This document shows, one piece after another, positions 26,801 through 32,800 of a DNA stretch of 64,000 nucleotides. Origin of the DNA: Halichondria panicea. Its lineage: Eukaryota; Porifera; Demospongiae; Suberitida; Halichondriidae. Both the position numbers and the translations under genes were made by a program. The notes under the pieces were generated by a model, which did no database searches, was not told the origin of the DNA, and worked only from the letters and a program-made list of their open reading frames with translations. Position 1 is the stretch's first letter. Each line of letters starts with the position of its first letter. The stretch lies in assembly GCF_963675165.1 (NCBI RefSeq), contig NC_087379.1:3166201-3230200 (forward strand), written 5' to 3'.

Positions 26801-29800
26801 CCGGTTGCCAAGGATAAGTTGGTACGTGGATTATGTAAGGATGTGAAGCTGGCTGTGCACTTTCCTGGCTTCCCCACCCTCAAGCACATCCCTCACGTGG
26901 GGGCGCTGGAGAAAAGAGGTGTGAGGGTGTTCCAGGCCGCTAGCAGAGGGGATAACTTGTTTCTCACGCTACTACCCAGAAACGAGAATAAGGTTTGTGC
27001 TTGCCAGATAATGAATAATTTGCTGGGTGCATTTTACATCGTAGTGTTTCTGTTGTGCGTATAGCCTTCCATTTACAGTGTCAGGCTGAATGGTAGCGCA
27101 TTATTGTCAACTGATAAAAGCACTGTAATTATACGTACTCTGTTCAACAATGGGCTGAGTTAGCAATATCCTTAGGAAATTCGTTTCTAGTTTACTATCA
27201 TTATGGGGATACTTCAATATTCAAGGCTGGAAAAGGATGAGAAAGTTGGCAGTAGCAAATTACATGTAGTTAGGATCTATTGCAGACATGTTCACTATTA
27301 TCTTTAGGACACTTCATTGCTCGTTATCAGGAGTGAATGCACTCCTGTCGTTATAGGTTAATCTTCAAGTTTTAATTTTACCGTCGCATTACTTCAATCT
27401 CAATTATTTAATATTTGCACTGCTTTTATACAAAATAATAACTAAACGTAATACACATTGCAACGTAGCTATTGGATGCCTAAAGTATCTTGAAGGTGAC
27501 TTTGTAGGTGCTTGATTGCAAGTACCAATCTGTGTCTCTGCCTCCAATCATAAGAAATTCGGTTTGTGAGACAGGTACGAATGCTGATAATACTACTGGG
27601 GCTGGCAAATCACCAACGTGGACCCACGAATTCATCGATGTCGAGTAGGCAAAAATGCTTTGTGTGGGTGAGATTTCAAGCAGGTTTTCAGAGTCTGCAC
27701 CACCAACAGCTAGGACCATGCCAGATATAGTTACAGCTGATGGGCGATAGCTGGGTGTGTTCTGTAGTTTAGTCCATGCATACGGTGAGGGTGAGGTATC
27801 ATCGCTGTTCTGTATTGCTTTCGATGGTTTCGAGTTGGAGATTAGATCTTCAATTTTAGCTTTCACTATTCTGTTCGAACGACGCAGACAATCATCTCCA
27901 CCCATAAGGTACACAGTGTTATTGATTATAGTTCCTCTCATACCCCTACAAGCATACGGTAATTCGTCGGTTTTGTTCCATTGGTTAGCGGCAAAGTTAT
28001 AGATTTCAACAAATGGAGTGGCCCAGTGTGATTGTGATTCTCCTCCTGCTACAACTAGGTGCATTGGAAGACTGACTACTGCTGGTGAACTTCTTGCTGT
28101 GATCATCGGTGGAATCGTCTTCGTCCACATGCGTGAATGCTCATCAAAGGCATTAAGTGTAGCTGATAGTGATAAGTCTTGATACGTACCTCCTACTAAA
28201 ACCAATTTTCCTGCAATCTCTCCCATACCAAATCTATGGATAGCTGGGTTAGGAAGAACTGACCATATATCTCTTGATGGCTCGTAACATTGAACAAAGT
28301 ATTCGTGATCGGTATTCTCACAAAATCCTCCACCGTAATAAACCTTGCCATTAATGGCTACAGCTTGCCCAATAGCCATATCCATCAGAGCTTCCGAGCA
28401 CACACTATGAGATATACTCGCCTGCAATGTCTGCATAAGTGTAAAGTGCAATGCTATACAATGTGACTGTCAGTTCAATTGTTCGTTTCTAAGCATGTAA
28501 TTTATAATGGGTGTTAGTTATTCAATTAGTATTGTAATATTAGCACTACTTACCTGTTGTTTCTTTGTTAAGAATTCTCTAGTACCTCTCAGTTGAGTGT
28601 TTAGGCGTTCAATGGCGTCTTCCTTCCCCCGAATACAGCTGTCTTTCATAGCTATGGTTGACGCCATCGATGAAATCACGGAATCTTTGACTGAGAGCGC
28701 TACCTCTTTTGTCTGTGTTCGAAGTCTTTCTTGTTCCACTTGTAAAGTGAGTGTAGTCACTTGTGAAGCTAGCGTTGCATTCTCAATTTCCAGTTTTGCA
28801 TATTCCACATCTTTAATATCAAGTTTTTTGTGTGCCAAGTTACAACTTGTAATTTGTTGATCAACTTCCTCGCCTAGTTCAGTGCACTTTACTTCTAGCT
28901 CGGCAACTATCGTGTCTTTAGTGTGTACGGCAATTTGAGCTGTCTCTTGTTCTTCATTCAACTGGTCAATTTGTAGCTGGAGTCCACTTGTATGAACTGA
29001 GTGTGCAAGTTCGATGCATTGCATAGCATTTTCTGTCGCTTGTTGCTGTTCTGTCCTTTCTACCATGAGTTGAATTATTTCTCCCTCTCTGTCCCGAATG
29101 GTGAGGGCTTTCTTCTCAATCTCCACCTCCAAAGCTCTCTTCTCTGTCAGCAGTGTACTCACTCGATGAAGCATCTCTACTCTATTCTCAATAGTGGGAG
29201 GCTGATCAAGCACCACCCCCCTCACCCGACCGATTATCTCCGCTGATGAAGGCCTTAGCTGGGGGTTGTTGCTGAGACAGCGCATGATGAGGTCCATCAA
29301 AGGGTGATCTGGGGGAATCCTTCGGAGAAACACTTCACGTCGTTCGGCTTCTGTCACTGATATCAGCCCATTGGGATTAACAGGATCAACTCGTGTCTGG
29401 CCAACCTTTGGTAGTGGCCACTCTGCTGTGAAGGTGTGAATCATCATGACCCCAAAAGAAAACACATCCACACTGGTGCAGTAGTGGGGGTCGGCAACCA
29501 TCACTTCGGGAGGCATGTATGCTGGAGTGCCAGGGGTCTGTGTCATTCGACTCACTTGAAGGGGGGTAAGGTTCAAGATTCGAGCAACCCCCAGATCGGA
29601 TATCTTGGCTGTCATGTTGGTTGACAAGAGAACGTTGTTGGCTGAGAGATCTCTGTGCACAATGACTGGTGTTTGGCCATGGAGGTAGGCCAGGCCCAGT
29701 GAGACATCATGGAGGATAGAGAAGTTGATCTCATTGGGGAAAATACCGTAGCGGTCGAGACAGCTGGTCAAGTTGGTGGGGAGGAACTCCATGACTAGGA

Positions 29801-32800
29801 TGGGGAACTGAGAGCCTTCCTCAAAACAGATTCCTAGAAACTGGACAATGTTGGGGTGCCTAGTTTGACTGAGCAGGTGACATTCCTCCAGATACCTTCG
29901 TGCTGCATGCCCAATTCCAGTCTCGTAGAGAACTCGGTAAAGCTTCTTGCCAGCACATTTCAGGCCTTGATACTCGAGCTCCATAACAACAGCGTAGGAA
30001 CCTCGTCCCAACTCATTTTCGGTGATGCGAATTTCTCTCAGGATAAATTGCTCGAAATTTTCGTAGTCTGTCATGTCAATTCATTCTGTGTGCGCGCGCA
30101 ATAAATTGGGCAACTGTTTACTCTTGTTGCACACTTTACAAGTGATAATTATTATTATGACCATGTTGCCACGCCCTTATGTTGTGATCATGTGGTAATA
30201 ATGAATAAAGGTTATAATTATGGAATATTTATTACTAGATATGCGTACAAGTTGCTTTGCAACAACACTGACACCCTATGAATAATCTTGCTCAATGATT
30301 CTGTAGAAAATATTTTATGTACGTGTATATCCATTGATAAGTGTGCCTCCTCCCACCCCAGGACTGCTATTCATTGGCTCAGGAGCTGGTTGGGCGAACA
30401 CTGTACGTTGGGTGGCCCTACCTGGCCGAGGCTAAAGTGTGTGCTGTGTCTGACGGGAGAGAAAAGTATCACGATGTCAGTAATAATGGTCTTAGTCACA
30501 ATACAGCGTATGTATGTATACGATTGGCTCCCATGCATGTGAACACAAGCACTTCCATGTATGTACATGTACATGACTCTGAATCATTGTACGTGAAGCA
30601 TAGAACACCTTATGAACTTGGTTACCTATCTAAATTCTACTAACTGTTAAACTGCATATTGTTTCCTTCCCCAGAGCTATGCCCCGACGAGTACCAAACC
30701 GCCAGGGGGTGGAGTCTCCCTGAGGAGAGAGGTACTAACTGAGGGTGGGGCTAAACAGTGGAGGGAGGACAAGACCATTATCGCCAGACAGTAAGTGTGT
30801 GAGCAGTAATTGATCCGCAGGATTAATACGTTTGCATTTTATGTTGAGTGTGTAGTGGGTAGAAATAAATGCATTTTCAGAGAGTATAAACTACAGGAAG
30901 TCTTGTAACAGTTGCTGTGTTGTTGAAGTGTCAAATTAGCCCGTTGCTCTTGATATGACCTCGATTGGTCCTCCTACCCTCACAGGTACTCCGAGCGACA
31001 AGGGATAAACCTGGGCAATGTGGAGTTGCTTGTCTATTCTCAAGTCCTGCAGGGGAAGCGTTATGTCGTGAGCAAGAAAGGGGACAGAGGGACAGTGGCT
31101 CTCGTTAAAGAATGGGCCCCATTGCCCGAGCCATTTGCTTACCAGACCACTGTTAGGGACATTGCAGCCTTTGCACCTGACTATAAAGAGCAGGTCAGTA
31201 GTCTGGAAGAGCTCTTCCCTGTCAAGTCCAACTGCTTCATCACATCTCCATTGCACTATGGCAGTCTGGCTGAGGTAACTTTATCTATTGAAAACTGGGA
31301 GACTGATGTGTATGGATTTGGTAGTCCATCTAACAGCAGCTGTTGTACATAATTATGCTTGTTGAAGTGAAGTATGTTTATATAGGATATAGGCAGTACG
31401 TCGTATTGAGTGGGGATGAGATAATGAGTCATATTGTTTTAGTTTTGCTGCTATTCTATCAGCGTGTGTGCATGTATAATTGTAGGTGATGTTAGTGGAC
31501 ACGGCTCAGCTTAGAGTGCAAGTCAAGGTCAACCCACTGCCTGAGCCGGAGCTCCTGTCTGTGTTAAACAACCGAAAGCTCTTTGTGCGCTACCTCCCAT
31601 CACACGTGGTAACAAGTGAGGTTGGTCTCCCACCCATAGCTCTGGCCAGGATCACCGGGAACATCCAGGTGGAGAGAGGATCCAGAGACAAGTCAGTAGC
31701 ACGTTGTCTTTATGAGAAGTTAATCAATCCACTTATTTTGCTCATTGTAGAGGGCTCTTTACATGTATGTTGTTTGACCAACTTTGAAGCTAATTTGCAC
31801 ACTTTCATGGATTATAGCCTACAATATAAATTGACTGCGCTTGGTTCCTTCCTTATAGCGTGAAGGGCAGAGAAAAGGCCAAGATTGGATTAAACTGGAA
31901 GTTTTCTAAGAGGAACCGAGAGGTACATGTACATACATGTATGTTATACTACACAAAAACTCTATTTATGTGAACGTAGTAATTATTATAGTGCCTCTCA
32001 AGTCTCATAATTTATGGTGTCCACTCCCACATTGATTTTGGGCCCACACTCGTTTCAACGAGGTTCCTCCATGCCAACATAATTGTTTCAGAGTTGTATC
32101 ATCTGATTACAGCTTCTTGGCTATGCTCGCAAACATGAAAAGGGAGGTTGGACGTTCTCCCTTGAGGCTATTGACATTCTCAAGCAGTTTATTAAAAAGT
32201 TCCCGGTCATGTTCGGATACATCAGAAGAAACCCCACAGATGATGTGTATTACGAGGAGGACCTGTTCCCCAAGAAAGATGGGTGAGTGCATGAGCAGTG
32301 TTTAGTGCTTTGCTAGTGCAAGTTCAAACAATTAACGGTCCCTTGTGTCTCTCTCCATTCTAGCATGAACCCTTTTCAGTGCTTTCTTGCACCTTGGTAT
32401 GTTTAAGTTGTATAATCAATAATAGTAATAGGCGATAGGAGAAGCATGGTCTCGCTTAGTTGGGGTGGGCAGGGGTGAACCTCCCCCCCACACCATTTTC
32501 ACATGATCACATTTAATAGTACTACGTGACAACATCATATTTATTGGTTAATGTGATTAACTCAATTGCTTAATTAACTGAGCCAAAACATTTTACAGCG
32601 TGCCCATCCTAGATGAAACCCTGTCAATGACATGTGCAATAAGCGATATCCTGAGACCCTATAATTATATGAACCACATTACACTGTGAACGTGTGCCAA
32701 ATACTTACACGTACATGTAATCAGCTTTGTAATAAATGCACCCCCAGCCCTGAGACTATCAGTAATGTGAAGGAGTGGCTGAAGGGTCTGCCTAGCGAGG

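Follow-up and report, generated by a model that had tools for sequence, protein, structure and literature searches.

A gene nested in an XRN1 intron of the sponge Halichondria panicea as a member of a large kinase–coiled-coil–kelch family with a variable propeller

Introduction

Is a protein kinase joined through a coiled coil to a kelch propeller, and lodged on the opposite strand inside an intron of XRN1, a single accident of one genome or a member of a family, and what would such a protein do? The gene that raises this question lies in a 64,000-nucleotide stretch of Halichondria panicea DNA (assembly GCF_963675165.1, 131 Mb; contig NC_087379.1, here C3; C3:3166201-3230200), called the window below. 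Both of its reading frames are open in the sequence. Wnt matches in the assembly agree with its animal source. As far as sequence can tell, the XRN1-nested gene is a dispersed but intact copy from a large kinase–coiled-coil–kelch family that has expanded in tandem. The kinase is the constant part of this family; the propeller varies at regularly recurring positions.

Family size and genomic distribution

Exon 1 (kinase and coiled coil), searched against the same genome, gave 89 matches. The best 55 of the 89, the XRN1-nested copy included, show 64-100% identity. Most of these lie at C3:0.86-1.72 Mb; others are found at C3:2.1-2.5 Mb, at C3 5.2 Mb and on C16. Search with exon 2 (kelch propeller) recovers the same places, plus a second kelch family. 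Of the 59 own-type exon-2 matches on C3, 57 are preceded within 7 kb by an exon-1 match on the same strand; two exon-2 matches and two exon-1 matches are unpaired. A DNA pattern representing the beginning of exon 2 occurs at 53 places (reversed control, 0), of which 47 are at C3:0.86-1.72 Mb; the XRN1-nested copy is absent from these 53. An earlier note on the window had described a domain order that it could not assign to a named family. The order was read correctly, but the fusion is not unique, as seen from the paired exons of C3 and from the 172 places of a sister kelch exon. A one-off fusion is ruled out by the genome-wide matches of both exons and by the kelch pattern counts. Relatives of the exon-1 product (P0001) were also looked for in a viral contig collection (14 pattern stretches, none confirmed) and in a genome contig collection (32 pattern stretches, none confirmed).

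Within the C3 array, loci L032 and L033 score alike, as do their kelch exons L062 and L063, and L016 and L017 nearly so; all occupy separate places. These pairs are either recent duplicates or assembly duplicates.

The pattern of the sister kelch exon (C1 type) occurs at its 172 places with a control of 0; the 100 places listed fall on C1, C6 and C28. The upstream region was checked at 3 of the 172 places, and a kinase was found by Pfam on the same strand in 3/3 (L069, L070, L071). At L071 (C6:731500-735500) the C1-type kelch exon follows a kinase frame reading unlike those of L069 and L070, which suggests that kinase modules have been exchanged between arrays. A third type, represented by L079 on C16, combines in a single open frame a Pfam kinase and a long stretch that is charged and looks helical; a propeller-like start, seen by eye only, follows. 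There are 41 places, L079 included, with at least 70% identity starting near the start of L079; 18 of them carry in-frame stops. Thirty-six of the 41 are within C16:3.75-5.71 Mb, and six scored NACHT matches (4.42-5.71 Mb) lie in or beside this region.

Selection on kinase and propeller

In the C3 array the kinase has a ratio of nonsynonymous to synonymous substitution rates (dN/dS) of 0.26 at a dS of 0.10, the coiled coil one of 0.43 at a dS of 0.17 and the kelch exon one of 0.92 at a dS of 0.11, as measured over 27 array copies of exon 1 and 28 of exon 2. Slower substitution as the cause of the low kinase dN is ruled out by the near-equal dS of kinase and kelch exon. Rows L037 and L038 (no donor) and L055 (in-frame stop) were dropped. 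Face-column and tree-free kelch analyses used 27 unique array sequences; for tree-based tests identical rows were removed too, leaving 26 exon-1 and 27 kelch sequences.

Variability of the kelch exon recurs blade by blade, at GG-16 and GG-15 (counted from the second G of the GG motif) and at GG+1 to +7. These are referred to as face columns. In the C3 type, columns with at least five residue types number 34, of which 30 are among the 50 face columns and 4 among the other 254. In the C1 type (ten sequences, with offsets taken from its own GG motifs) 15 of the 16 such columns are among 54 face columns; the remaining 261 columns contain one. Pooled pairwise (tree-free) dN/dS is 1.94 in the face vs 0.53 in the rest for C3, and 1.96 vs 0.48 for C1. 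Restricted to GG-16, -15 and +1, the ratio rises to 2.42 (C3) and 4.37 (C1). In the tree-based site test, twice the log-likelihood difference (2dlnL) is 757 for kelch, 53 for kinase and 23 for coiled coil; 45 kelch sites have a posterior above 0.95, and 32 of these are inside face columns.

In aligned designed kelch proteins Ser stands at GG-16 and Tyr at GG+1. Tyr525 and Tyr572 of Keap1 presumably likewise stand directly after GG. Ligand contacts of Keap1 named in PMC6891428 include Ser363, Ser508, Tyr525, Gly530, Ser555, Ala556, Tyr572 and Phe577. By the same numbering, Ser508/Tyr525 and Ser555/Tyr572 are each spaced 17 residues apart, which equals the spacing of GG-16 to GG+1; Ala556 would then be GG-15, and Gly530 and Phe577 would be GG+6. 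By spacing, the variable slots match these ligand positions and may together form one face of the propeller.

Proposed function

The kelch part probably selects a binding partner, because array copies show diversifying selection at the Keap1-like slots. The earlier note had suggested that the kelch part could pick kinase substrates; the choice of a partner is retained, but such selection fits a propeller that recognises changing ligands better than one that chooses among fixed substrates. The XRN1-nested gene probably belongs to a large set of recognition kinases that would serve immunity or allorecognition. The protein would be cytosolic. Its propeller face would bind one particular ligand of microbial or allogeneic origin that is unstable in evolution, and the coiled coil would pair or cluster the molecules. 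Binding of ligand would bring the coiled-coil-linked kinases together, proximity would activate them, and the activated kinases would signal via a pathway common to family members. Use of a common pathway would account for the uniformity that gene conversion maintains in the kinase core, even in the far XRN1-nested copy.

Large families that pair a constant signalling part with a hypervariable binding face are characteristic of immunity and self-recognition. If the proposal is true, a kinase fused to a hypervariable kelch propeller adds a class beside the NLR, SRCR, TLR-like and Ig repertoires, and gives concrete candidates for the intracellular sensors with which early animals reject grafts and tell symbionts apart. 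Conserved slots bring face swaps, ligand searches and typing of individuals within reach. A broader suggestion is tentative and somewhat more apt to be wrong than right. It is that of an undescribed system of intracellular kinases, diversified in the germline and possibly over 200 in number, with hypervariable kelch faces and one conserved output, active in microbial sensing or allorecognition beside NLRs; its kinase would be kept uniform by gene conversion even in dispersed copies, and its face codons may diversify by local mutation or conversion.

Several points weigh against recognition by a variable face. Assignment of the slots to a face is by motif register and published Keap1 numbers rather than by structure; AlphaFold2 run on P0002 (the first 315 residues of exon 2) without an alignment reached a mean predicted local distance difference test score (pLDDT) of 32.7 and gave no usable model. 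The face offsets were picked after viewing the C3 columns, and the C1 alignment was viewed before its test. Blade 1 (GGG) was registered by hand in both types. From C3 the highest-scoring loci were sampled, and from the C1 type 10 of 172. Selection estimates come from array copies, and the closest exon-2 relative of the XRN1-nested copy is 53% identical to it. In L079 of the C16 type no Pfam kelch match was present in the last 100 residues examined, the region of the propeller-like start. Thirteen of the 45 selected kelch sites fall outside face columns. Four-gamete conflicts are seen in 1046 of 2926 kinase site pairs and 1759 of 5460 kelch site pairs, indicating recombination. The 2dlnL values of kinase and coiled coil may be artefacts of it. 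Since recombination is evident, the tree-based site tests serve as support only and the tree-free ratios carry the claim. Synonymous divergence (pS) is roughly doubled in face codons (0.187 vs 0.089 elsewhere in C3; 0.157 vs 0.078 in C1). This doubling hints at a local diversifying process.

Kelch propellers serve as substrate adaptors. The propeller could select varied cellular substrates for one kinase, with no non-self recognition, which is close to the idea of the earlier note and agrees with the catalytic motifs being present in the XRN1-nested copy and in 27 of 27 array copies. For stable substrates, however, face dN/dS above 1 in two types, 12 residue types at one kelch position among 28 array copies and a very high copy number are unexpected, and this explanation is considered unlikely.

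Relaxed constraint, with loops of redundant tandem copies drifting freely, would accord with the many copies and with the in-frame stops of the C16 type. It is disfavoured by the half-sample 5-95% ranges of C3 face dN/dS, 1.67-2.19 around 1.94 and 2.12-2.80 around 2.42 at GG-16/-15/+1, and by minimal counts of nonsynonymous to synonymous changes (220:44 in the face vs 213:120 in the rest). The probability left to it is very small.

History of the XRN1-nested copy

DNA identity between the XRN1-nested copy and the array is 85-96% in the kinase core (residues 31-270), vs 41-78% in coiled coil and kelch. The copy departs from the array consensus at 2 of 10 fourfold sites before the core (residues 1-30), at 18 of 113 within it, at 22 of 40 from residue 271 to 507 and at 45 of 85 across the kelch exon. 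Fourfold divergence inside the array is 0.02-0.15, both in the core and elsewhere. A low core mutation rate is rejected for the XRN1-nested copy because divergence in the array is alike in the two parts. Gene conversion or recombination with the array is the likely source of its kinase core. Face residues of the copy are 21% identical to those of array members, and the rest of the propeller 56%. The copy is best read as an old lineage in which the kinase has evolved in concert with that of the array. It is not a retrocopy, because it keeps its intron; a retrocopy origin is ruled out on this ground.

The nesting in XRN1 looks incidental. The intron would be a mere landing place of the copy after duplication at the DNA level. 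The earlier note had supposed that transcription of one gene could affect the other, and antisense transcription of the copy regulating XRN1, or the reverse, would suit a gene placed wholly in an XRN1 intron on the opposite strand. No support for it was obtained: 47 of the 53 own-type places occupy a single 0.86 Mb stretch of C3 far from XRN1, most matches fall in clusters elsewhere, on C3, C1 and C6, and the copy has the usual gene structure of the array. A role for the nesting is very improbable.

Gene structure and domains

Exons 1 and 2 join in phase 0 at 28554/28430 and give an 823-residue product. The donor, CAG|GT[AG]AG in phase 0, is at the same position in 27 of 29 array exon-1 paralogues examined; in the two exceptions, L037 and L038, the exon-1 frame stops early without a donor. 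The acceptor is at the same position in 29 of 29 exon-2 paralogues examined. The predicted splice sites are backed by homology. Two adjoining separate genes, one for kinase and coiled coil and one for kelch, would find some favour in the two exon-2 and two exon-1 rows of C3 that lack a partner, but are hardly credible against splice sites conserved in position and phase and 57 of 59 exon-2 rows preceded by an exon-1 row. Plus-strand exons on either side of the gene match positions 1-53 and 60-93 of the XRN1_D1 profile. These are adjoining parts of XRN1_D1, and the gene is therefore wholly within an XRN1 intron and opposite to it. Coordinates of all features are given in Table 1. The in-phase join, the kinase in exon 1, the coiled coil of about 200 residues, the six-blade propeller in exon 2 and the antisense nesting had all been proposed in the earlier note and are borne out here.

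Table 1. Features of the kinase–kelch gene and its enclosing intron, in window positions (position 1 is the first letter of the window). Slot offsets are relative to the GG motif of each blade.
Feature	Position	Strand	Basis
XRN1 intron enclosing the kinase–kelch gene	26993..30361	+	donor and acceptor read in sequence; neighbouring exons match XRN1_D1
Exon 1, kinase and coiled coil, 507 residues (P0001)	28554..30074	-	ATG to donor CAG|GTAAG open; same exon in 29 fetched paralogues, 27/29 open through donor
Protein kinase domain (P0001 19-281), Lys43/44, HRD 140-142, DLG 160-162	29232..30020	-	PF00069 7.6e-40; residues kept in 27/27 array copies
Kinase core homogenised with array (P0001 31-270), likely gene-conversion tract	29265..29984	-	fourfold sites, sliding profile
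Coiled coil (P0001 about 295-505)	28560..29192	-	heptad-register test; paralogue lengths in few modulo-7 classes; Fourier test negative
Phase-0 GT-AG intron, 123 nt	28431..28553	-	donor and acceptor positions kept in paralogues
Exon 2, six-blade kelch propeller, 316 residues and TAG (P0002, first 315)	27480..28430	-	PF13964 9.6e-20, PF01344 5.9e-12, six GG motifs
Blade 1 GG-16/-15 slot	28371..28376	-	slot class hypervariable in array
Blade 1 GG+1..+7 slot	28305..28325	-	slot class hypervariable in array
Blade 2 GG-16/-15 slot	28233..28238	-	slot class hypervariable in array
Blade 2 GG+1..+7 slot	28167..28187	-	slot class hypervariable in array
Blade 3 GG-16/-15 slot	28086..28091	-	slot class hypervariable in array
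Blade 3 GG+1..+7 slot	28020..28040	-	slot class hypervariable in array
Blade 4 GG-16/-15 slot	27942..27947	-	slot class hypervariable in array
Blade 4 GG+1..+7 slot	27876..27896	-	slot class hypervariable in array
Blade 5 GG-16/-15 slot	27744..27749	-	slot class hypervariable in array
Blade 5 GG+1..+7 slot	27678..27698	-	slot class hypervariable in array
Blade 6 GG-16/-15 slot	27585..27590	-	slot class hypervariable in array
Blade 6 GG+1..+7 slot	27519..27539	-	slot class hypervariable in array

Kinase and kelch/propeller families are the only Pfam matches (E 0.01) of the encoded protein; BTB, BACK, NACHT, NB-ARC, death, CARD and ROC-COR are not among them. Among solved kinases, those closest to it in sequence include CTR1, TNNI3K, WNK3, BIK1, CERK1, BRI1 and RIPK2, and to judge by these chains the kinase may be TKL-like. 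The coiled coil is supported by the heptad-register test, in which 0 of 200 shuffles reach the observed score (kinase control, 182 of 200), though the Fourier heptad test gave no coiled-coil signal (367 of 1000 shuffles reach the observed value). Its lengths in array exon-1 copies (27 of 28 counted; one left out, anchor absent) fall into modulo-7 classes of 13, 8, 5 and 1 copies, that is, 26 of 27 in three classes, and so tend to differ by whole heptads. The modulo-7 classes of L009-L038 look as if whole heptads come and go. The reference G of the six blade motifs is at P0002 35, 81, 130, 178, 244 and 297.

About 1.3 kb before the start of the window, at C3:3163594-3164928, lies a further kinase frame, which stays open for 883 residues and shares 43% identity with the kinase query of the C16 type. 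It is possibly another related gene adjoining the window.

Comparison with known systems

Kinase and kelch repeats are presumably combined in one protein in the Roco kinases of Dictyostelium, together with ROC-COR and other parts; the protein of the XRN1-nested gene differs from these in having no ROC-COR match. RIPK2, TNNI3K and plant CTR1, BIK1 and CERK1 resemble it in the kinase domain at the sequence level. By Pfam it carries kinase and kelch families only, and it may differ from those kinases in its partner domains. Keap1 and other KLHL proteins share the six kelch blades with GG motifs, and the spacing of the Keap1 ligand residues listed above matches the variable slots. Unlike these, the kinase–kelch protein has no BTB or BACK match, is fused to a kinase and has a hypervariable face.

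Sponge NLR and SRCR repertoires are likewise large, lineage-specific receptor families, according to PMC12909245 and PMC6208332. NACHT genes are abundant in the present genome. In the whole assembly, 102 scored NACHT matches over the cut-off were obtained from 265 candidates, many of them clustered on C7, C13 and C14. The domains of NLR and SRCR proteins are unrelated to those described here, and the kinase–kelch genes are a separate repertoire. According to PMC6208332, each of two sponge species exposed to microbial patterns lowered expression of a kelch-motif gene, with changes in kinases too; this response is suggestive and does not identify the kinase–kelch family. No description of a kinase–coiled-coil–kelch family was found in a partial search of the sponge kelch and kinase literature; papers or supplements outside that search may have one.

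The nearest analogy is fungal HNWD. In HNWD and HET-E of Podospora a changing WD-repeat domain sets non-self specificity, according to PMC2873952. A conserved signalling part, fast-changing propeller-type repeats setting specificity and concerted evolution are described there, and the kinase–kelch family is alike in this plan. The parts are unlike: a STAND NTPase and WD repeats in the fungus; kinase, coiled coil and kelch repeats in the sponge. The kinase–kelch protein is placed outside the HNWD/STAND family because it has no NACHT domain. The change measured in the kinase–kelch family is one of residues at fixed slots, not gain and loss of repeats as in the HNWD genes of that source.

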